Assembly (NCBI RefSeq): GCF_963675165.1
Contig: NC_087381.1
Location: 2,914,001-2,978,000, forward strand
Length of the DNA stretch: 64,000 nt
Reading direction: 5' to 3'
Source of the DNA: Halichondria panicea
Lineage: Eukaryota; Porifera; Demospongiae; Suberitida; Halichondriidae
This document shows positions 26,296 to 57,369 of the stretch, piece after piece. Position numbers and translations under genes: made by a program. Numbering within the stretch: position 1 is the stretch's first letter; the number at the start of each line of letters is the position of its first letter. Below the pieces are notes generated by a model. That model was not told the DNA's origin. It was given only the letters and a program-made list of their open reading frames with translations, and made no database searches.

Positions 26296-29200
26296 TTAGT
26301 TCCTGTTGAACAGCACACTAGCTACATGGTATACCAATAGCATCTGGTATATAAGAAAGTGACCACACATTTTTGCTGTGTCCATTGCTGTTTCTCCCAT
26401 CTGCAAAACATGTTAAAAGATATGTTTTAACGTTGATTTGCAGCAAATTTACCTTATCCATAACTTTTGGATCGGCTCCATTTTTGAGGAGAACACTGAC
26501 AATCTCTCTTTGTCCCTTGATAACTGCTAGCTGTAGAGCTGTCGTTCCTCTGCAATTCTGTGCATTAATGTGAGCTTTTGCAGCAATCAGTAGTTCTACT
26601 ATAGCGAGATGATCTTCTTGGGCAGCTATCATTAAAGGAGAGAATCCACTCTGTAAAATAGAAGTTTAGAAAAGCATAATTATAGAGGAGATTGGTCACG
26701 ATTGTTAATTAATCTTCTAATTTTCTTTGTAACCGGCCTCCAAACTTGCAGAGAAAGTAGCTATCCTAGCTAAGCCAAAGGCTGCAAACGATCATAGCCT
26801 TTTATACTAGTAGAAAATGATGCTAATAATATACTCAGTGACACTAGAAAGTGACTAGCATAGTCACATATACTCGAAGCAATGAGCCAGAAACTAAGAT
26901 TAGTCACAACTTCCAGTTGTTGCTGCACTTTCCTCCTGTCTCAATGAGGCAGGTGTAGCAACGATAGTTTTAAATTACTACGATTCATAGACTAACAGGA
27001 GACGTAATACAACAGATAAACGATGCAAAATAAAATAAAAGTGCTGACTCAGTGGGGTTCCTTCCATGGCTTCTGTGCTGTGCATTTACTGTAGGAATTG
27101 GAGGTTACAGAAGATTAATTAACAATCGTGACCAACCTCCTCTGGTCCTTATAATAGCACAACATGCAGTCAGGACAAATAAAATTAGTTTACATGATAT
27201 GCATGAACTGATCACCTTGTCTGGCGTGCATACACTAGCTCCAGCAGTGATTAGCTGTTGAACAATATCTCTGTGCCCATGGAAACAGGCTAACCATAGG
27301 GCAGTACGTTTCTCCTGCAAAATTTCAACAGTAATGTTCGATGACACTAAAATTATTTTCGAGGATAAACACTAAACATAATTATGGGCTATTAAATGGT
27401 TAAAGCACTAAGTGACTCACTACGCCCTGAGTGTTTGGATCAGCTTTATTCTGTAGAAGAACCTTCACACACTTTAACATTCCTCGTCTAGCTGCTAGAT
27501 GAAGTGCCGTTACATTGTCCTATATGATTACAGTTTACAAATAGTTTATACAGACGTGGAAAATAATAATTACACCTTCATTTTTTCATCCACGTGCACA
27601 CCAGGCTCATTTAGTAAGAGCTGTAAAGCTTCACTCTGTCCAGACCTTGACGCAAGATGAAGTGGTGTTCTTTCAATCTATTATCAAAATTATTGTGTCG
27701 TCATTATAATATACATGCATCATGACATTGTGCATACGCACCTTGTCCCTGCAGTTAACATTGCATTTTACTTCTTTTAATAAGAATGTGACCATTTTTA
27801 AAACCCCTGATTCAGCAGCAATGTGGAGAGGGGAAGAACCATTGAGTTGATTTTCCTCATTGACATCAAGCAGATCATGTTGTGAAATCTCATCCATAAT
27901 GTACTTCACAACATCCACGCTGTCACTTGCACAACCATAATGTAGAGCAGAACATCCACGATTATCTCTACTAGACGGATCAACTTGCCAAATACCGATA
28001 AGGTACTTCAAAATATGTATATATAGGTGTCCATTGAGAGCAGCATGATGAAGTGGTGCTGCACCAGTGATGCATTGAGTTGCCGCATTGAATTCCATGT
28101 GTTCAGTGAAGTACCTAACAATGTTGAGATGTCCACAACTTGCTGCAATGTGAAGTAGAAAATGAACTTCCCCATTACAAGACTTAGAATCGTAGTTTAG
28201 AACTTCAATCAGGAACCGTACTTGGGTTATTACTCCATTGAACACGGCTAAATGAAGCTTATGAAACGGTATGCAAATGTGTACCGGGAAGGAGATAATG
28301 CCTGTTGGCGAAGCTGTGTCGTTAACCGGCAAGGTGTGAGTTGTTGATGATGTTTGGCTAGATGGCCCTGTGCTGTATCCAGAGTCTGAATGAAAACAGC
28401 TTGATTTCACTGCTATTGACTCATCGTCGAGTTCCAGATGTGGCTGAGTGCTTTGATTGTCATAGTTGTTGTCCAAGTCAGCATCTAAATTTACAAAAGA
28501 AACCGTGTAGCGTGATTGTGGTCAATGCATGCACAAGAAAACTTACCACTATCTGAACTGCATGAAATGGCATCCTAAAAAAAAGAGAGTATAAATAATG
28601 TCGTGCATATACAATCATCGCTAAAGATTTTATGTGCACAGTGAAATTTTAGTACCGTAAGACCTCGATTTAAAGCGACACTTTTTAACAATTACAAAGC
28701 CAGAGGTCGCTTCATTAGGAGGTTGAAAAATTTACATTGAAGTCCTGGTGTCCCATATTTAGAGGGTCGCATCTAATTAGAGGTAACTTTACAGAGTCTA
28801 ACTTGCCTCGATTTCAGGCCGCTTAAAAACAATGATTTTCCCAGAGGGCTACAGTCGAGGCTAGAGAGTGGCTACATTTACCTCTATTTCGAACGCGACA
28901 TTAAAAAATAATTGTCAACGCAGCTGTCGCTATTTTTAGAGGTCAGAAAATTGCTGAAGCTCCTGGGTGTCGCATATTTGGAGGGTCGCCTTAAATCGAG
29001 GTCTTACGATACTATAAAATTAATACTGATCAGCAGTTATTTTCGAGGCACTAAATTTTGCAGATTGCCCAAACAAAACATTTTCGAGGATAGCGGTTCA
29101 AATGACCACACCCCTACAGTAACACCAATTTTTGAGGCACTAAATTTTCGTATTCTGGGTCAATCCTCGAAAACCTCCTAAATTTAGTGCCTTGAAAATA

Positions 29201-32200
29201 ACCAGCTATACAGTAGTCAGTTAAAGTGGCCTTTCTTTCCCATTTTTCCCACGGCACTTATTCTTCCCTGATCTCAGATATAGAATATAAAGCCGAAAAT
29301 GTTACCTCATCTGTTTTCTTGGGCATAATATCATCGCATGATATACCAAGAGATGGGGACAAATGCTTAGGTAGAGGGGATTGTTGTCTCTCTCCATCCT
29401 TCTGTTTGGATGGTGGTTCAAGTAGCTTTTTCTCCTGAGATGTGGTTGTTTGTTGAGGATCCAGGTCTTCAGTTATGAGCGGCCCTCTTTCTTTAGATAT
29501 GGGATATAGCTGTGGTTTCTTTTCCTCGGTCGTAATATGTTGTTGCTCTTGTGTGTGGGATGACTGGGGCAGATTTTCATGAGGGGTGGGGGTTGGCTGA
29601 GCATCGATGTTTTCGTCTTCGTCTTGCCTGAGAAACATAAGCAGAACAAAATTTAATTACACTACCACATCATGAAGCTGACTTATGTACCTTTTGTTTT
29701 CCTTTTTGTCAAATGGGAGAAGCCTCGCTCCAATCGCATTGAGTGCCGACTGTTGAGAAGGGGACAGAGGGAAGATATGCTCAGCAACAGCTGCGGAAAC
29801 CAAGAAGTGTAACTCAACACAGCCTTTTCTGACGGAGCAAAGTTGTAAAGCATTGAATTCCAGACCTAAGATTTCAGCAAATTTGTCTTGTAGAACTATA
29901 ACCCCGTTTAGTGTTAATGTCGACTCTGTGCATTTGAGTTTAAACACTTTGGCTGTCTTACGAGACTTGCATGATGAAAAAGCAGATGGAGGAACTTCGA
30001 AAACACTTCTCTGGCAGAAGGTTTTTAAATCATCCAGGTATCGTTCAAGCATTTTGTGATCAATAGCAGAACCTGAGTGTTGAATAAGCAGCTCAATGAT
30101 TTGGTAGTTCAAAAATGAGATATAGTTGTAAGTTTGAAGTGTGGAGAATATTCTGGCAAGGCTTTTTGCCGCAAGGACTATCTCTTTGTGCTCAGTATCA
30201 AGTGCACTCACACCTTCATCGTTTGGAAGAACAGCACTCAATACACAATCTCGAAGATTATCTAAGGTATCTTGTCCTTCAATTGATTTCCGAATACATA
30301 CGGAGAATTCAGAAAACTTGATAATAATCTTTCGTGTATCAAGTATCAATTTTTCTTCCAAATACTTGACATCTTCATCATCAAGACCAGTAACGTCAAG
30401 ATAAGGAAAGAGGGAGGTAGTTTCGAGAGATTTTGTCTTCCTGGGGCAACCTTCTTTAGAGAAGAATTGTTGTGGAGAACACTCTTTGCAGTAAGGACAT
30501 ACAAAAATGTCACGATTATCAGTGGCAGAATGAAACGACTCATCTCCAGAAAAGACGTCTCCATCATCTGCTAGCTCAACTGGGTGGTCAGGTTGGAGTA
30601 TGTCACTCTTTTTTAGTGAGTCTTGCAACCACTTGGCAGAGGAGAGTGTTTCCTGGGTACAGCCTCCTGGTATACTGAATTCTGAGAATGGAGAATAATT
30701 TATATATAGTGACCAATATCATAGACCAACCACGTGGAATACTCACCTTCAAGTTCCTTGTGTGTGTCAGATGATTCTTGCATACTAGACGACTGAGCTG
30801 GAAGTGAATTGAATAAATCCTCAGTCCAGTTCTCTGATTTCAAAGATTGGGTCGTGGTTGTGTCATTCGGTATTGTACGTTCCTGCATGGAGATAATCAG
30901 GTAAGAGTATAGGTGTGGCTAATTATTCCAGGATAAAAATCATCACTGAAACATATAATTATAATAGTCTAGAGATACGAAGTGTACACACAAACTCACT
31001 TTTAAGTACTGACAGATTTGATCGGCAATCTCTTCCTTCCTTAACTTTACCAACATCTCCAGAAGCGTCTTGAATGTCGCTTGTTCAGGATTCTTTCCTT
31101 TCCAGATTTTCAAGCACTTAATCACGGCTAATTGATTAGTTTTTGCACCTTCGACATCGGTTTGTTTACCAGTGGTTAATTCCATCAAATCGACATAAAA
31201 ATCAACATTATCAAAATAGGCAGTGAAACAGGGTATGTCTACTTGTTGAATTTGACAGTCGACTTGAGAAGGACTGAGTTGATATTTGTCCAATAGCCCT
31301 TGAAGAACTGTACTCACTGCAGTTCATTGTAAACATAATAATTACTGTATAATTACAACAGGTTGTTAAACAGAAAACAGCGTAGGGCATGATTAATAAC
31401 ATTTTACGCACTGGTGACAAACATCGAAAGTGGTAAAAGGAAGTGAAATTAACTTGCATACCATACTGAGTTAAACCTGAATTAAGTAACTCCTTCCAGG
31501 TTAGAGGAGGTCCTGATTTCAACGGTGATCAAGTATTTCACGAAGACAGTTGCTGTCATCATTAGTCGACTGCTTTCTGATGCTATCTAGTGTGACAATA
31601 TGAGCTTGCCCAATATCTGCTCTGAGAGTAGCACAGCATGAGCTTCATTTAAATCATCCGGTGTGAGCACTATAATGTATATACCGTAGTTAAACGTTAA
31701 CGGGCGTCACCGTCCTCATCATTGCACGGAAAGAGAATGGGAACCAAGCCTATAGCTACAGTTTTGTTCTGGCCTGTTACACAATAGCAATATGAATCTC
31801 ATTATTTAAGTGGGTGTTAGCCAATAGTAATGCACCTATCAATGCAAATCCCCCCTACCCCCCTCCTAGTTGGGCGGAGTCCAACCACGCTTCGCTAGTG
31901 GTTGGGTCTCACGACAATATACGTTTTTGTTCCACTGGTACTTGAGGCAGAGTATGAATATTGTTTAATCTCAAGTGGCTGACAACCGCATGGCTCAGGG
32001 TGCGATACAATAATTATTTGTACGCTGTGTCTAGCTTGACTAGATCTATAGCTATAACTGTTTTAGGGTGCAAGAAAGACCCCAGAGTTTTTAGAGAAAG
32101 TGGAAGGATACTTCAGCCTGTAAAACAAGATTTAGTAGAGCCTAGAGGCATGCAGAAATAACCTTTTTTCATAATAGAGCTAGATCTAGCACAAAGAGAG

Positions 32201-34236
32201 CTATATAAGACTACCCTATAGGCTTCTGGAAAAGATGTTCGATTACCAGAGAAGGCACAGGTTTTGTCCAAATTAATCTTATTACACCAAAACTCAAAAC
32301 AACAAAAACAAGTCCTTTTAATACAAAGAATCTACAACTTCAAACTGTTCAAGCTTCATTTATAGATAGTAAGATAGACCATGGTTCTTTTCTAGTAGCC
32401 TAGATATCTGGCAGGAGCTGTTCATGCTGTTGCTGCATCTCTGGAGAAATACAGTGAGCCATCTTGCCTTGTCAGCTAAATTGAGCTGTAAGGTTTCTCT
32501 CTTGAACGCTGCAATCTGATTGGGCTGCAAGTTTTCTGCAGTTGGAACAAAAACGTATATTGTCGTGAGACCCAACCACTGCAAGTGGTTGGACTCCGCC
32601 CAACTACCCCCTCCCGGGACAAGGGGGGCTTTGTCAATTATATATATGAGGTGCAAAAGACTCTCCCCCGGGGCTATTTTATTTGACAAACCCCTGGCAA
32701 ATACCCGGGGCATGGCAGTTGAACACAATAATAATTGCAATATTTTAGTATACAGACGACTTTACAAGTTCCCACCCCTATAGGGCTAAGTTTTACTAAC
32801 AAAGCTCCCCCCTTGTCCTGGGAGGGGGGTAGTGGGGCTTTGCATTGATAGGTGCATAAGTGACTGTGTGCCTCTCAGTCAATAGCATGTACAAAATTCA
32901 CACGTGGTAAAGTTAAGTGGGTGTGTCCATTTGAAATACTGCAATCTGATTGGAGCCGGTGGAATTCCACGGGCAGAACAAAACTGTATTGGGTCCCGTT
33001 CTCCTTTCGTACAACAGTAGAGGGCGGCGCCGGATCTAGTTAAGTACCAAACCACCCATATCAAATAACCGCCCATCCCATACTTTTGCCTGAAATAGTG
33101 CCATCGCAGAAGCGCGCATGCGTATAATTAGGTCAAATGTCAACATGATGCAAGATTTTTCATTGATAAATAGCTATATACATCAGAAATATTGCTAGAG
33201 ACTTATGCGAATTTGACAGTCGACTTGAGAAGGACTGAGCTGATATTTGTCCAATAGCACTTGAAGAACTGTACTCACTGGTTGAGCAGATGATCCTAAT
33301 GACAGATATGCTATAACAATTGAATAGAAATTAATATCATTACACCAAATAGCACCATGCAATAAATAATTTACAAAACGTCGATAGAGATCCTCCTGTC
33401 TAATAATTGCTTTCCCAAAATTGTGTGATATTGAAGCAGTTTTTGGATAATTATAACAGCATGAGTGTAGGGCAATACATAAAATTGTACGCACTGACAA
33501 CAAATGTAAATGCAATTAGGAATCTTACGTATTAAATTAACAAGTATCTTGCATACCATACTGAGTATTAAGTAACTCCTTCCAGGTTAGAGGAGGCCCT
33601 GATTTCAAACGGTGATCAAGCATTTCACGAAGACAGGTGCTGTCATCATTAGCATACCGCTTTCTGATGCTATCTAGTATGACATCCTCAACATGTAGAG
33701 CTTGTCCAATCTCGAACCATTTGTTCTGAGAGTCGTACAGTTTAGTGTGAGCTTCGTTTAAATCATCCATTGTTAGTGCGTCATCTGTATATATAATACA
33801 AAAAACTGGCCAGCACTATTATTATATGTACATACCGCGGTACATGTAGCTACTGTATAAGAGTACCCCATGCATGTAGTTAATTGGTGCCAACATTAAA
33901 GCTATAATTACCCATTTGAGGCCCAGGATTGCTCTCAACGTCTCCAGCTAACAGCAAGAGGTGGGCAAGAGAGTGGAGCAACACAGCAATCAGTATCACC
34001 AGAAGACCAACGTTCCTTGTACGTTTTAGGAATTTGCTTTTATCTTGATAGCTCAGAAATGTGAGAATATACAATAAAAGCAATCCTCCTTGAACCACTT
34101 TCGCAGTAGTACCCACTGTGTCACTAAAGTGTAGAGGCTGGTGTTTTATCGAGGGAGCTTTACTGTGTGGTCGCGATCCCCTCCCACCACTGGACAGCCC
34201 AATGCGAGCTCTCCACAACTCTACAGAGATCCCCAT
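26296..34236 (-). CDS. Gene A: 2A-leader, double death domain, X domain, ankyrin-repeat protein
   Basis: Proposed exons on minus: 34236-33912, 33784-33557, 31316-31000, 30882-30747, 30681-29691, 29627-29306, 28574-28547, 28484-27742, 27677-27576, 27519-27424, 27314-27216, 26650-26453, 26400-26296. Total 3690 bases, 1229 aa, all phases consistent. Residues 1-106: leader with two hydrophobic helices ending in GDVESNPGP. About 109-184: death domain 1 (LTWKELLN). About 185-290: death domain 2 (LLEMLVKLRKEEIADQICQYL). 291-335: linker. 336-665: an insert with CPYC and further cysteines, then domain X. 666-773: Pro/Gln/Glu-rich. 783-1195: about ten ankyrin repeats. The last 34 residues form a hydrophobic tail. 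Use of the two 5'-most exons with the rest is inferred from phase. A decayed death-domain exon and a truncated one lie between them. The likely role is death/immune signalling; no enzymatic domain is visible. Confidence 0.72.
26684..27143. mobile_element. MITE in gene A intron (AGAGGAGATTGGTCACGATTG termini)
   Basis: The left end GAGGAGATTGGTCACGATTG and following TTAATTAATCTTC are inverted at the right end (GAAGATTAATTAACAATCG then TGACCAACCTCCTCT). Arms are at least 34 bases with one or two mismatches. It lies in the intron between ankyrin exons 27216 and 26650. It has no coding content. Confidence 0.75.
28656..29008. mobile_element. MITE with CGTAAGACCTCGATTTA termini
   Basis: CGTAAGACCTCGATTTAAAG at 28656 is mirrored by TTAAATCGAGGTCTTACG ending at 29008. 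GAGGTCGC/GGGTCGC blocks repeat inside. It lies in a gene A intron (28575-29305). Confidence 0.8.
29034..29206. mobile_element. Short MITE with TATTTTCGAGGCACTAAATTT termini
   Basis: TTATTTTCGAGGCACTAAAT on the left is mirrored by ATTTAGTGCCTTGAAAATAA on the right, about 170 bases overall, directly beside the preceding element in the same gene A intron. Fragments of the same family occur at 37550-37650. Confidence 0.65.
31464..31670 (-). pseudogene. Decayed death-domain-1 exon of gene A
   Basis: The minus-strand reading aligns with the intact exons at 33784-33557 and 55028-54801 (GATGATTTAAA, CTAGATAGCATCAGAAAGC, GATGACAGCA, CTAACCTGGAAGGAG), but short deletions break the frame: about nine bases near 31620, more near 31590, one base at CCGTTGAAATC (intact copies have CCGTTTGAAATC), plus an insertion near 31475. 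It cannot encode a death domain and is probably skipped. Confidence 0.85.
31831..32856. mobile_element. ~1.03 kb inverted-repeat element inside gene A
   Basis: TGCACCTATCAATGCAAA at 31831 is mirrored by TTTGCATTGATAGGTGCA ending at 32856. Further in, a second inverted pair (TTGGGCGGAGTCCAACCAC and GTGGTTGGACTCCGCCCAA, extending to GGAACAAAAACGTATATTG) spans about 70 bases near 31866-31935 and 32544-32610. It is a composite or nested foldback element without coding capacity, sitting between death-domain exons of gene A. Confidence 0.75.
33212..33295 (-). pseudogene. Truncated death-domain-2 exon
   Basis: The acceptor CATTAG at 33296 and the first 27 or so codons (SSAQPVSTVLQ, LSPSQVDCQI) match the intact exon 54548-54214, then identity stops abruptly near 33212 and no donor follows. 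It marks the end of the duplicated 5' module. If transcribed, it would have to be skipped in favour of 31316-31000. Confidence 0.85.
33912..34236 (-). other. 2A ribosome-skipping leader exon, gene A
   Basis: The ATG at 34236 opens 108 codons. The leader reads MGISVELWRARIG, then a basic/Ser stretch, hydrophobic helix GGLLLLYILTFLS, a basic loop (KFLKRTRN), hydrophobic helix GLLVILIAVLLHSLAHLLLL, then AGDVESNPGP. The last nine residues fit the 2A consensus D(V/I)ExNPG|P exactly, with the hydrophobic upstream tract that 2A needs. Skipping would fall between Gly105 and Pro106, and the downstream product would begin P-QMDDALTMDD and run into death domain 1. The donor GGTAATT is at 33911. An alternative 5'-UTR acceptor TATTCAG lies just before the ATG. 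Confidence 0.88.
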
Positions 34237-34756: not shown

Positions 34757-37130
34757 CTAGTTCCTGTTGAACAGCACACTAGCTACTTGGTATACCAATA
34801 GCATCTGGTATATAAGAAAGTGACCACACCTTTTTGCTGTGTCCATTGCTGTTATTCCCATCTGCATAAAATTATGATAAAAGAGATGGTCTATAATTGT
34901 TGAAGTGAAGCATTTACCTTATCCGTAACTTTTGGATCCGCTCCATTTTTGAGGAGAACACTGACAATCTCTGTTTGCCCTGTGGCAACTGCTAAGTGTA
35001 AAGCTGTTACTCCTTGTGGTCTATTTTGGGCATTGACGTCAGCTTGGGCAGCAACCAGTAGTTTCACTATAGCGAGATGACCAAGTTGTGACGCTATCAT
35101 TAGAGGGCTCGCTCTCTCCTGTACATGCACATGACATTGCACCATTGAACCATCAATCGATTGAATAATTATACGTGCATGTATGTATACACCAATGACC
35201 AAACTTTCTACCAGTTTTTGTGTCAACATTAAAAATCTACACGTACACATTGCACGTTGTATATAAATTCAGTGAAAGCTAACTTTGATGTAAAAATTTA
35301 AACCGTTACTTTTATACCTTGTCAGCTATATTGGCGTCAGCTCCACTCTTGAGGAGTACACGGACACACTCCGTACGACCTCCAGTTGTGGCATGATATA
35401 GAGCCGTAGATCCAAATAGTGTTTGAGCATCAAGTGGAGCTTTTGCATCAATGAATAAAGCAACCACAGTGGGGTGACCAAAGTGAGCCGCTGCCATGAG
35501 AGCAGTGCCTCCAGTCTGCACAACACAAGCACAAGCAGACAATCAGTATATGTAATTATAATTAAGTGTCTTACTTCATCCTTTAGTTTGGGATTGGCTC
35601 CATTGTTTAGGAGAACACTGACACACTCTGTCTGACCGCCAATGGCAGCCAAATGGAGAGCTGTTCCAATTTGGACACCTCGTGCATTGACATGAACCTT
35701 TGCAGCAATTAACAGTTCCATAATCTTGACATGACCATCTCGAGCAGACATCATAAGAGTAGTGAACCCAATCTATATAATTACACAGCAAAAACACTTG
35801 TTATAGGAGATGCATCATCGTATTTTAGTGTTAAAATACAGAAATGTATGTCATTAAATTTCAAAAGATGCGTTTTATTTAACATGTTTTATGTTACTAT
35901 AACGAATATGTTTTACTGTGTATAATTATACAGTGCCAGAATAGTTAAACAATCATGATTCATCACTTAATTGTAACATGTTCACAGTCTTACAACCTTG
36001 TCTGTTGAATTTGGGGATGCTCCATTCTTGAGGAGAACACTAACACACTCTGATTGTCCTTTGAAAGCAGCCGTGTGGAGAGCTGTATGGCCAGACTGAG
36101 TGCGAGCTTCGATCTGAGCCTTGGCAGAGATAAGTTGTATCATAACTTCAGGATGACCTTCTTGAGCAGCGATTATTAGAGCTGTGAATCCACGCTGTAC
36201 AAAAATGATAAATTAATACAACTTACAAATGTAACAGGAGAGTTTTAATATGTAAAAAAGACTTACAATAGTATTTGCATTGACCCGAGCCCCATTCCTT
36301 ATGAGAACATCGACACATTTTGATCGTCCTTTACTAGCAGCCAGCATAAGAGGCGTTGAATCTTCTTTTAGAGAATGGCCTTCAATGTCAGCTTTAGCAG
36401 CAATCAGTAGCTCTACAACTCCAGCATGGCCCATAAGACAAGCAACCATAAGAGGAGTTAACTGCACACAAACAATTATGTTGATAGATAATTATTGTAC
36501 TCTACTTGGACCTTTGCATCATGCATGGCACACTCTCTATGCAGAGTGAGGCCCATGGTTTTTCAGCTGTTTATACTCAATGTGAAGGGAAGTACAGGAC
36601 ACGTATTATGATAGGCTTTCAATTATATGCACATGGTAAAAAAGATGGGTCAAGTCGACACCCCTTATAGTTAATTTTAAGAGATGTTGAACTTTTATTT
36701 GGCGATCATTATTGCTAAGCTCACCGTATTTGACAGATGAACACTTGCTCCAGCAGAGATCAACAGATTAACAATGTCTTCGGCCCCGTTTCTACTAGCC
36801 AACCAGAGAGGAGTCAATTTCTTCTACATAATTAGACAACTATATATACATTTTGACTTGCTTTCAAGTGATGACAAATCCTAAGACTTACAGAATCTAC
36901 AAAGCAGTAGACACTAAAATATAATCAAGGGCGTATAAAAAGAGAGAGGGCAAGCAACTGACTATCAACCCTATACGTGCGAGCAAAAACCAAAGCCACC
37001 GACTGGATATATTATACTATGACATTGTGCTGTACACAAAAATCTAGATATTACTGTTACAGTAGCTTTACACTGCCCCCTTCGGTTTTTGCTCGCAAGC
37101 TGTTGCATGCACGCCCTCTCTGATTTTATA
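34342..37130. repeat. Segmental duplication, copy in gene B (partner 61075-63910)
   Basis: Intergenic DNA and the last seven ankyrin-encoding or terminal exons, with their introns, align with 61075-63910 in the same order and orientation with high identity. Shared landmarks include CTGTACTGTGTGTTAATTTGG, the terminal exon, and TTTTGCTCGCAAGCTGT near the far end. Confidence 0.85.
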
Positions 37131-54200: not shown

Positions 54201-55485
54201 CACACAAACTCACTTTTAAGTACTGACAGATTTGATCGGCAATCTCTTCCTTCCTTAACTTTACCAACATCTCCAGAAGGGTCAAGAATGTCGCTCGTGC
54301 AGGATTCTTTCCTTTCCAGAGTTTCAAGCACTTGATCACGGCTAATTGATTAGCTTCTGCACCTTTGACATCGGTTTGTTCACCAGGGGTTAATTCCATC
54401 ACATCGACATAGAAACCAACATTATCAAAAAAGGCAGCCAAATATGGTATGTGCGTTTGTTGAATTTGACAGTCGACTTGAGAAGGACTGAGTTGATATT
54501 TGTCCAATAGCACTTGAAGAACTGTACTCACTGGTTGAGCAGATGATCCTAATGACAGATATGCTATAACAATTGAATAGTAATTAATATCATTACACCA
54601 AATAGCACCATGCAATAAATAATGTACAAAACGTCGATAGAGATCCTCCTGTCTAATAATTGCTTTCCCAGATATTGAAGCAGTTTTTGGATAATTATAA
54701 CAGCATGAGTGTAGGGCAATACATAAAATTGTACGCACTGACAACAAACGCAAATGCAATTAGGAATCTTACGTATTAAATTAACAAGTATCTTGCATAC
54801 CATACTGAGTATTAAGTAACTCCTTCCAGGTTAGAGGAGGCCATGATTTCAAACGGTGATCAAGCATTTCACGAAGACAGGTGCTGTCATCCTTAGCATA
54901 CTGCTTTCTGATGCTATCTAGTACGACATCCTCAACATGTAGAGCTTGTCCAATCTCAAACCATCTGTTCCGAGAGTCGTACAGTTTAGTGTGAGCTTCG
55001 TTTAAATCATCCATTGTTAGTGTGTCATCTGTATATATAATACAAAAAACTGACCGGCACTATAATTATATGTACATACCGCGGTACATGTAGCTACTGT
55101 ATAAGAGTACCCCCATGCATGCATGTAGTTAATTGGCGCCAACATTAAAGCTATAATTACCCATTTGAGGCCCAGGATTGCTCTCAACGTCTCCAGCTAA
55201 CAGCAAGAGGTGGGCAAGAGAGTGGAGCAACACAGCAATCGATATCACCAGAAGACCAACGTTCCTTGTACGTTTTAGGAATTCAGTTTTATCTTGAGAG
55301 CTCAGAAATGTGAGAATATACAATAAAAGCAATCCTCCTTGAACCACTTTCGCAGTAGTACCCACTGTATCACTGAAGTGTAGAGGCTGGTGTTTTGTCG
55401 AGGGAGCTTTACTGTGTGGTCGCGATCCCCTCCCACCACTAAACAGCCCAATGCGAGCTCTCCACAACTCTACAGTGATCCCCAT
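42246..55485 (-). CDS. Gene C: 2A-leader, double death domain, X domain, ~13 ankyrin repeats
   Basis: Exons on minus: 55485-55161, 55028-54801, 54548-54214, 54092-54029, 48377-47653, 47359-47332, 46666-46485, 46422-45775, 45680-45579, 45488-45396, 44668-44468, 43080-42883, 42560-42366. These total 3324 bases (1108 codons), in phase throughout; reading on from 42366 reaches a stop at 42246. Residues 1-106: leader ending GDVESNPGP. 109-184: death domain 1. 185-296: death domain 2. 297-317: linker. 318-559: domain X. 569-629: Ser/Asp-rich. 630-1108: five ankyrin repeats in one exon, then single and paired repeats. The intron 54028-48378 is about 5.65 kb and filled with transposons, unusually long here; that it is spliced is inferred from phase and paralogue order. 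The conserved hydrophobic terminal exon of A, B and D is missing, so the 3' end may be truncated or misassembled. Confidence 0.72.
42641..42807. mobile_element. MITE, ACCGTATAGCGGGTAAT family, copy a
   Basis: ACCGTATAGCGGGTAATCTTTG at the left is mirrored by CGAAAATGACCCGCTATATGGT at the right. TTTCGT/ACGAAA blocks pair inside. It is in a gene C intron. Confidence 0.8.
43421..43625. mobile_element. MITE, ACCGTATAGCGGGTTAT family, copy b
   Basis: ACCGTATAGCGGGTTATTTT is mirrored by AATTACTCGCTATACGGT. The interior repeats GTGGTCAAGCTGACCTCCACG, found inverted in copy a. It is in the gene C intron 43081-44467. Confidence 0.8.
43726..43962. mobile_element. MITE, ACCGTATAGCGGGTATATTTCG family, copy c
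   Basis: ACCGTATAGCGGGTATATTT at the left and AAATATACCCGCTATACGGT at the right form a perfect pair. A second inverted block (CGCGAAAATTTATACCC) lies on both sides inside. Same gene C intron as copy b. Confidence 0.85.
46758..47044. mobile_element. MITE with GGGTAGTAATTTTAGCG termini
   Basis: GGGTAGTAATTTTAGCG is mirrored by CGCTAAAATTAGTACCC at the right end. It lies in the gene C intron before X-linked exon 46666 and abuts the next element. Confidence 0.7.
47055..47271. mobile_element. MITE, CGAAATTTTC family
   Basis: ACCGTAAAGTCCGAAATTTTC at the left pairs with GAAAATTTCGCGCTATACGGT at the right. The interior is closely like 10754-10968 but in inverse orientation (shared TTCGTGG and CTAACCCA blocks). 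Confidence 0.75.
49867..50355. mobile_element. MITE with CAGAGGAGGTTGGAC termini and 9-bp target duplication
   Basis: CAGAGGAGGTTGGACACGC is mirrored by GCGCGTCCAACCTCCTCTG. The direct repeat GGTCGTTGT flanks both ends (49858-49866 and 50356-50364), consistent with an 8-9 bp target duplication as made by hAT-like or related transposases. No coding sequence. Confidence 0.85.
50404..51291. mobile_element. piggyBac-like MITE (TTAACCCTTTCCCCGTT termini)
   Basis: TTAACCCTTTCCCCGTT at the left and AACGGGGAAAGGGTTAA at the right form a perfect pair with TTAA at both outer ends, the target site of piggyBac elements. About 890 bases, no transposase, hence non-autonomous. Confidence 0.8.
51973..52291. 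repeat. Small element with TTAGACACT ends, copy 1
   Basis: TTAGACACT opens it and AGTGTCTAA closes it. The first 110 bases themselves contain a foldback (CTATGGGATTTAGAAGCC against GGCTTCTAAATCACATGG). A second copy is at 62507-62795. Confidence 0.65.
52440..52815 (+). repeat. Interspersed ~400-bp repeat, copy 3
   Basis: It shares AGTCAAACTAGCCATAACTC, GCTAATCCACGAATC, AATCCAAGAGAACGTGGCTAG, a CA tract and GCCTCGAGGCATAAT with the copies at 10263 and 40958. It is in the long gene C intron. Confidence 0.65.
55161..55485 (-). other. 2A ribosome-skipping leader exon, gene C
   Basis: Same 108-codon length as the gene A copy, with scattered substitutions (for example GITVELW, GLFSGG, SSQDKTEF, VISIAVLL). 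The two hydrophobic helices and AGDVESNPGP are intact. It is followed by donor GGTAATT and, in phase, by death-domain exon 55028-54801. Conservation of the motif while flanking residues vary supports function. Confidence 0.88.
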
Positions 55486-56128: not shown

Positions 56129-57369
56129 CAGTGCAACAACCAAAGAGAGTAGATTTTTTTTTATATTATTTTTTTTCACATTTTGTGGCATATCTTCTGA
56201 AGTAAAAGTGATATGATCTATTTGAGTGCAGGTACTGAAAGTTCAATTATTGGCGCTTCCATTGGACCACCACCTGTTACATCATATGACATCATCACTA
56301 TGAAATGGCTGTCTGAAGATGTGTACCTCCGAAAATATGTTAGGAATAGAAGTAGCTTATTTGTTTGAGTTAAGATCTGAAATTTATTGTGTATGTACCT
56401 GACTATATTGCTCATCTTTTGAGCTTCAACGGAAGTCTGGGCTGCTAGTAAGTTCTGAGAAATACTGAATTTTGTTGTTTTTTGGTGGCAAATATGTTAG
56501 GAATACAACTTTCGATTTTATGCTAGTTAAGGTCTGATTTTTGAGGAGCATGTACTACAATAGCATAGAATTCATCTGTACTAACTTACAGGAGCTAGAC
56601 AAGTTTCATCTTTGCTAGAGCGGCCCTTCTTGTCAAAAATGGTGATTTTGCTCCGTTTTGCTACTTTTGCTGACGTATGCAATGATATTCATTGATTTGT
56701 GACATCACAAATCATCTTGTTGTTATTTGCTACATCCAAAGGTCATGTGATGTCTACCTGCAAATACACAGTTGGTGTTGGTCATTCTGTGTCACAGGGG
56801 CGTGGTAATTGAGCTTACTACGTAGCCAAATCGCCCCAAAAGTCATAAAAAGCACTGTTTTTGACAAGATGGGCTGCTCTAGCAAAGAAGAGGCTAGCCT
56901 AACTCCTGTAAGTTAGTACAGATGAAAAGTACACTATTGTAGTACATGCTGCTCAAAAATCAGACCTTAACTAATATAAAATCGAAAGTTGTATTCCTAA
57001 CATATTTGCCACCAAAAAACAACAAAATGCAGTATTTCTCAGAACTTACTAGTAGCCCAGACTTCTGTTGAAGCTCAAAAGATGAGCAATATACTCAGGT
57101 ACATACACAACAAATTTCAGATCTTAACTCAAACAAATAAGCTACTTCTATTCCTAACATATTTTCGGAAGTACACATCTTCAGACAGCCATTTTATACT
57201 AATGATGTCATGTGATGTAACAGGTGGTGGTCCAATGGAAGCGCCAATAGTTGAACTTTCAGTACCTGCACTCAAATAGATCATATCACTTTTACTTTAG
57301 AAGATATGCCACAAAATGTAAAAAATGTGTACCAAAAAAAAAAATCTACTCTCTTTGGTTGTTGCACTG
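56129..57369. mobile_element. 1.24 kb foldback element with ~510-bp arms and TA target duplication
   Basis: CAGTGCAACAACCAAAGAGA opens it and TCTCTTTGGTTGTTGCACTG closes it, flanked by TA on both sides. Arms extend to about 56645 on the left and from about 56860 on the right with high but imperfect identity, so mirrored reading frames of about 65 codons appear on opposite strands and are not genes. The unique centre is about 215 bases. Confidence 0.92.

Follow-up and report, generated by a model that had tools for sequence, protein, structure and literature searches.

The window analysed here, a stretch of 64,000 nucleotides from the sponge Halichondria panicea (NC_087381.1, positions 2,914,001 to 2,978,000), contains on its minus strand a death-domain/ankyrin gene, the leader exon of which (34236-33912) ends in DVESNPGP, the octapeptide of the 2A, or StopGo, peptides. 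On meeting such a peptide the ribosome jams and leaves out the bond between glycine and proline. It is very probable that this exon encodes a working cellular 2A leader, the products being a small membrane peptide and a receptor in the cytosol, with the unskipped product directed to the secretory route; that the motif skips in the animal is, judging from its sequence, expected with marginally greater confidence still, and with some hesitation we favour dual targeting as the purpose of the leader. The gene belongs to a large set, this one animal genome holding 116 sites, the majority of them ahead of death-fold domains, and a trick encountered mainly in viruses may be in wide use among the immune-type genes of an animal.

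The leader exon and its gene

The leader comprises 105 residues before the skip point, ending LLLLAGDVESNPG|P, and the translation of the exon reads MGISVELWRARIGLSSGGRGSRPHSK...GLLVILIAVLLHSLAHLLLLAGDVESNPG|PQM, followed by the first base of a codon that the intron divides (phase 1). An earlier note on this DNA had claimed a leader of about this length, an exact 2A consensus at its end and a hydrophobic stretch in front of it, and all three claims hold. The octapeptide matches the core D(V/I)ExNPGP exactly; it is preceded by LLLLAG, that is, by an L-rich context in which (A/S/C)G is followed by D, and residues 78-96 form a strong hydrophobic stretch with a mean hydropathy of 2.73. The note had further proposed two membrane helices, of which only this one is clear; the other (residues 50-62) is marginal, no 19-residue window exceeding 1.6 in this copy, and the marginal stretch of the leader of the paralogous public protein P0001 reaches 1.51. 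According to a 2026 PNAS paper on viral 2As (PMC12846837), the L-rich motifs 2 and 6 end in (A/S/C)G and are accompanied by a core that begins with D and has S as its x; motif 6 proved active in an assay. In its octapeptide and its (A/S/C)G-D context the LLLLAG-DVESNPGP of the window fits the LLLLSG-like class described there; the sponge 2A, however, lies in a spliced cellular gene, the viral 2A in a polyprotein.

Chance occurrence of the motif was rejected. A degenerate DNA pattern for DVExNPGP, searched with up to two mismatches, has two exact matches in the window against 0.01 expected (100 shuffles), and the genome has 116 sites against one in a reversed control. The second match in the window, absent from the earlier note, is that of a paralogous, near-identical leader (55485-55161, minus strand), and a death-domain exon of like type comes after it. 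We considered, and dropped, an interpretation of the MG start of the leader as an N-myristoylation signal.

Following the splice signals from the first leader, 13 exons, all bounded by GT-AG and in phase, join into a model of 1,230 residues in the order leader, first death domain (DD1), second death domain, a stretch of unknown nature, linkers and ankyrin repeats (Table 1). The leader is joined to the exon 33784-33557 through a donor at 33911 and an acceptor at 33785 in phase 1, as the earlier note had supposed. When residues 1-290 of the model served as the query, three public proteins were found with E <= 1 among 2,550 candidates, all of them from Halichondria panicea. The best, P0001 (1,302 residues, labelled tankyrase-1-like isoform X5), is 86% identical over 100% of these residues and reads from leader through 2A into death domain in a single frame, with the junction ...LLLLAGDVESNPGP|RMDDTLTVDDLNEAH, as in the window model. 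Since the leader of P0001 is that of a paralogue (L037, C5:3068289), it provides no direct evidence for the window copy; the joint of leader and death domain is nevertheless predicted by public annotation too, for a paralogue.

Pfam recognises the ankyrin repeats and, above its cut-off, the second death domain (27.3 bits against 22.6; the same domain of P0001 lies below, at 18.9), but DD1, immediately behind the 2A, is identified by its family profile only. It has no Pfam match, its relatives scoring 13.9-15.9 bits or nothing, and the profile (12 sequences, with invariant W, G, L and T positions) matches FADD, PIDD and CRADD in the PDB with a best E of 6e-4. A single-sequence AlphaFold2 model of DD1 was poor (predicted local distance difference test, pLDDT, 69.8; predicted template modelling score, pTM, 0.36) and was not used. 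No NACHT body, as found in the sea-urchin receptors considered below, was detected by Pfam in the scanned frames of the window gene or in its first 667 residues.

2A sites across the genome

The genome searched comprises 131 Mb in 39 contigs, with reversed patterns as controls. DVExNPGP occurs at 91 sites (control 0) and DxExNPGP at 116 (control 1); although any codon was allowed at position 2, it is V in 76 and I in 24 of the 100 matches listed. With V, I or M at position 2 and the first P kept fixed, single codons were then freed one at a time. Freeing the last P (D[V/I/M]ExNPG) again gives 116 sites (control 2), and P follows at least 115 of them, a count made up of the 100 listed last-P-free matches, which agree with the DxExNPGP list, and 15 further sites from the DVExNPGP search; the equal totals suggest that P probably follows the remaining one too. 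Freeing N (117 sites, +1) or G (118, +2) yields nothing above the controls (3 in each case). (A/S/C)G precedes the core in 40 of the 41 distinct sites for which the sequence was analysed (the sequenced sites below), and LLLLAG in 25 of the 41.

These counts bear on the proposal of a leader that serves simply as a signal or membrane anchor, in which NPGP is kept for another reason, no skipping occurs and the receptor is membrane-bound or exported. The strong hydrophobic stretch at the end of the leader would suit an anchor, as would the transmembrane segments noted in sponge NLR architectures in PMC12909245. A plain anchor, however, needs no invariant NPGP, and the lack of N, G and last-P variants above the reversed controls, together with the restriction of position 2 to V or I among the 100 matches listed, as in the 2A consensus, makes the proposal quite improbable. 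A 2A leader offers another possible reading of those transmembrane segments.

Among the 14 additional sites obtained by freeing E are eight DVKPNPGP, four DIQSNPGP and two others. The eight DVKPNPGP sites, a natural E-to-K variant, lie in an array on contig C2 (7761821 to 7860244); three have a CARD-like match 76-142 nucleotides behind, and five sit about 2.1 kb upstream of an intact 2A. DIQSNPGP has identical DNA at C1:4741111, C1:4781053, C1:8762162 and C13:2878457. The genome provides a natural series of 2A variants.

The domains behind the 2A

A death-domain or CARD-like profile match lies within 3 kb behind 40 of the 41 sequenced sites, L029 being without any. The death profile was built from members on C5, C14 and one other contig and is independent for the remaining sites, whereas five of the loci labelled by the CARD-like profile had gone into building it. 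As a control, two of 42 three-kilobase tiles of the window match the death profile, both behind the two leaders. The association also appears from the opposite direction, with the window death domain as the query: among 150 matches scored out of 529 candidates, a listed 2A stands on the same strand at most 1.5 kb upstream in 64, and within 1.5 kb in antisense or downstream in none. When a C14 death domain, a CARD-like domain and the L029 piece were used as additional queries, 97 of the 115 located sites proved to precede such a domain within 1.5 kb (74 death, 14 CARD-like and nine of the L029 type, which is death-like). The inputs here were 88 death-domain places, 17 of 127 CARD-like and nine of 17 L029-type places, a selection that can miss cases and cannot add them. 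In 82 of the 88 death and CARD-like cases the distance from 2A to domain is at most 200 nucleotides, with a median of 111; C2:7823380 and C13:4058165, added by the profile search of the 41 sites, bring the total with a downstream domain to 99 of 115. The L029-type domain has no Pfam match and is called death-like by eye only. Likewise, because the CARD identity of the domain behind the C1, C2 and C7 leaders is unconfirmed (Pfam E 0.16 for one piece; no CARD among five PDB matches), we call it CARD-like.

A donor-like GT lies 4, 7 or 10 nucleotides past the last proline codon, in phase 1, at 39 of the 41 sites and is absent at two; these donors were chosen by pattern, and a joined frame exists only for the public models, for L051 and for the gene in the window. 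Behind each of the 41 sites, frames of at least 80 residues, three at most and 104 in all, were scanned with Pfam, and among the 22 families matched were Death (11 frames), ankyrin (six), TRADD-like_N (three) and NACHT (two). The three TRADD-like N-terminal matches are weak (best E 9e-4), and this domain is possibly the stretch between the death domains and the ankyrin repeats. DUF3504, QRICH1 and phage-integrase were each found in one frame, a hint at a Crypton-like tyrosine recombinase in the vicinity of a 2A locus.

Non-LTR retrotransposons carry 2A-like sequences too, reportedly described by Odon in 2013. The octapeptide is alike in those elements, and a 2A brought in by a retrotransposon or virus that inserted near host genes, and unused by the host gene, has to be weighed. 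RNA viruses often contain 2As, and some are known from non-LTR retrotransposons, according to PMC4981915. Against such an insertion, none of the 104 downstream frames contains a reverse transcriptase (one is Crypton-like), phase-1 donor-like GTs stand behind 39 of the 41 sequenced sites, and a scan of IMG/VR with six leader peptides returned 29 stretches, none of them a relative by tblastn. A retrotransposon or viral origin is accordingly not supported for the window copy, and an unused insertion seems to us very unlikely indeed; the spliced, in-phase fusion to a death domain bears out the view that this is a cellular gene and not a viral polyprotein.

The bodies that follow the leader are diverse. 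The 2A stretch as a query returned one public protein with E <= 10 among 57 candidates (proteins of about 716-2,278 residues), and the leader and death domain of the L051/L052 locus returned 11 among 261 at the same threshold; all are from Halichondria panicea, an outcome which, for the three protein searches together, says little about sponges without proteins in the collection. A 2A is present in 11 of the 14 public proteins (P0001 and P0004-P0013), the leaders of P0004-P0013 having 166-207 residues before it and one to three hydrophobic stretches. In a Pfam scan of seven of them (P0001, P0004, P0006 and P0008-P0011), NACHT was found in P0008 and P0009, a dynamin-type GTPase in P0010, ankyrin in P0001 and sub-threshold Roc matches in P0004 and P0011; the best Pfam Death stretch, where present, is a later domain and not the one behind the 2A. 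P0012 and P0013 bear the precomputed label PF05729 (NACHT). Leucine-rich repeats in the NACHT proteins and a ZU5 domain in P0006 were noted by eye. The L051/L052 locus on C14 contains, in order, a leader, DVEANPGP, a phase-1 intron, a death domain and an open frame, some 1,085 residues long, in which there is a NACHT-type P-loop, the NACHT assignment being made by eye. At least some of the sites are thus 2A-death-NACHT genes. The observation made in the earlier note is right, but it understated the scale of use, the window gene being one site among 116.

Conservation of the leader

With the 81 residues upstream of the 2A as the query, 31 places in the genome were found at E <= 10, one weak match (E 0.0135) being set aside. 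A listed 2A stands directly behind the leader in 25 of the 27 uninterrupted copies and in one of the three interrupted ones; the two uninterrupted copies without it (C5:3029411 and C4:4050687) match part of the leader only. At C5:2648825-2649127 lies a decayed relative of the window leader, with three in-frame stops and a 2A reading DVESNPEP (one of the additional sites obtained by freeing G). For 17 close leaders (two distant ones of 19 being left out), the pooled ratio of nonsynonymous to synonymous differences (pN/pS) is 0.38 over the whole leader, 0.27 in the first 30 columns and 0.16 in the octapeptide, where V/I is the only amino-acid change; since pairs of leaders are not independent, these values are descriptive. 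The conserved start suggests, at the level of sequence, that the released leader itself has some role. The leaders of L047 and L002, which belong to other families, also begin with a WRxR(I/T)G motif (MDDLQTWRARIGLY and MPISAEEWRVRTGL). Going by these sequences, the leader families may share an old element at their N-terminus.

Skipping and dual targeting

One question then is how such a leader would operate. The motif, its context, the exon joint, the conservation and the repeated use before death-fold domains can be read directly from the DNA, and from them we infer skipping, its efficiency, the localisation of the products and a role in immunity. The ribosome would translate the 105-residue leader first, whereupon the C-terminal LLLLAGDVESNPG would hold the peptidyl-transferase centre such that no bond to the next proline is made; the leader would be released and translation would continue on the same mRNA. 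The first product would be a small basic hydrophobic peptide, the second a cytosolic death-domain/ankyrin receptor with the N-terminus Pro-Gln-Met. The few unskipped chains would retain the hydrophobic leader and pass into the secretory pathway, with the body probably lumenal. This orientation is predicted because the window copy has a basic flank (+4) ahead of the hydrophobic stretch and an acidic motif behind it. The earlier note had the whole protein membrane-tethered where skipping fails, which is possible, but the charges of the window copy predict instead a lumenal body and an exocytic routing like that of the skipping-dead sea-urchin leader, so that the unskipped product is, by analogy, a putative minor exocytic form. 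In the C14 leaders the hydrophobic stretches probably lie far enough upstream for the membrane machinery to be engaged before the 2A is reached.

The closest known system is the sea-urchin SpNLR2A (Roulston 2016, PMC4981915). There the N-terminal 2A of an NLR skipped at about 80% in vitro, replacement of P by A abolished skipping, and a leader with mutated NPGP fused to mCherry was found mainly in the Golgi. The likeness extends to a cellular gene for an immune receptor with a death domain that begins with a hydrophobic leader ending in a 2A, and to the prediction of cytosolic versus exocytic products. By contrast, the sponge leaders have 105 to about 200 residues with a conserved N-terminus of their own, against 26 in SpNLR2A, the sponge death domain lies in a separate exon past a phase-1 intron, and the sponge bodies extend beyond NACHT. 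Both the mechanism and an N-terminal 2A on an immune receptor are already known from the sea urchin, while the scale, the sponge host and the non-NLR bodies look new. Among the papers listed in searches of the open-licence literature, several of which listed part of their matches (15 of 765 and 10 of 332, for instance), and judged by titles and the starts of abstracts, none was seen to report 2As from genes of sponges, 2As with an ankyrin or GTPase body, or use on a comparable scale, with the reservation that a 2025 Cell Reports survey of eukaryotic and viral 2As (Rao 2025) may include them. The comparison suggests that an N-terminal 2A is used by, or arose independently in, the innate receptors of sponges and echinoderms.

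A different use of the same motif would be a 2A that mostly stops translation, the leader being made and the receptor seldom, as a throttle on receptor dose. An overdose of receptor could be toxic, and some natural 2As, according to PMC11512398, release the upstream product without detectable downstream product; the stop phenotype is, however, reported there for certain picornavirus 2As, and we regard such a throttle as improbable here. Returning to a leader that skips and lets the receptor be made, we would tentatively extend it to the whole repertoire, with odds slightly against: the 2A leader would be the shared, shuffled first module of death-fold receptors with ankyrin, NACHT, Roc-like and dynamin-like bodies, skipping a standing rule of their expression, and the DVKPNPGP paralogues constitutively leader-bound, tuning the exported share.

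Observations that weigh against the proposal

Several observations run counter to a working 2A leader in general use. According to PMC11512398, some D(V/I)ExNPGP sequences are inactive, so that activity needs an assay. Variants of the motif exist, freeing of D giving 123 sites (+7) and of E 130 (+14), with controls of 2 each. The copies are related by duplication, so that the 116 sites are not 116 independent events. Of the scored death-domain matches, 86 of 150 are without a listed 2A upstream, 16 of the 115 located sites are without an assigned downstream domain, and three of the 14 public proteins (P0002, P0003 and P0014) lack the 2A; the public models, moreover, are themselves predictions. 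Pfam fails on DD1, and in P0004 it assigns a piece of this domain to a UBR1-like winged helix (27.8 bits, cut-off 27). Over its last 25 codons the leader is not more constrained than elsewhere (pN/pS 0.42 against 0.37). The charge of the flank over 37 sites is positive in 26, zero in six and negative in five, and with so mixed a picture the topology argument is not valid for all sites.

Finally, the window gene, with a damaged exon in its second intron, may be decaying downstream. The exon copy after DD1 is broken by a stop at about 33195, and there is a second, degraded exon, for a death domain, at about 31660-31480; as the exon after DD1 is damaged, the model uses an intact second copy (31316-31000), 2.2 kb further on. 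The damage would suit a window copy that is a decaying duplicate, with its 2A a relic. Since a full in-phase path around the damage exists, and no stop interrupts the leader or the first death domain, both of which are close to the paralogues, we consider this unlikely, if less so than the alternatives weighed above.

Features of the window

Table 1. Positions of the leader, the 2A and the exons of the window gene, and of the second leader in the window with its death-domain exon
Feature	Position	Strand	Basis
Leader exon; 105 residues, P-Q-M and 1 base (phase 1)	33912..34236	-	also in paralogues and public model P0001
Marginal hydrophobic stretch, leader residues 50-62	34051..34089	-	no 19-residue window >1.6
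Strong hydrophobic stretch, leader residues 78-96	33949..34005	-	hydropathy 2.73
Hexapeptide LLLLAG preceding the octapeptide; resembles LLLLSG-like class of viral 2As	33943..33960	-	class of PMC12846837
2A/StopGo octapeptide DVESNPG|P	33919..33942	-	DNA pattern match, gene model
Phase-1 intron, leader to first death domain	33785..33911	-	GT-AG
DD1 exon; last helix region of its relatives absent	33557..33784	-	family profile matches FADD, E 6e-4
Second death-domain exon	31000..31316	-	Pfam Death 27.3 bits (cut-off 22.6); in-phase splice
Linker exon	30747..30882	-	gene model
Exon, unknown domain	29691..30681	-	no Pfam match in this copy
Linker exon, then 28-nucleotide exon 28574-28547	29306..29627	-	gene model
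First ankyrin-repeat exon	27742..28484	-	Pfam ankyrin in frame 28521-27673; gene model
Further exons	27677-27576, 27519-27421, 27314-27216, 26650-26453, from 26400	-	gene model
Second 2A leader exon of the window (MGITVELW...LLLLAGDVESNPGP)	55161..55485	-	DNA pattern match
Death-domain exon after second leader	54801..55028	-	death-domain profile

The long second intron (33556-31317) contains, by eye, the broken copy of the next exon, the degraded death-domain exon and repeat-like sequence, which appear to be traces of tandem duplication. On the other side of the leader, 34760-36212 holds the last ankyrin exons of a neighbouring paralogue; they finish with LLVYQVASVLFNRN, which is close to how the window gene ends. 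Upstream of the second leader, at 56450-57000, lies an imperfect inverted repeat that by eye resembles a small non-autonomous transposon.

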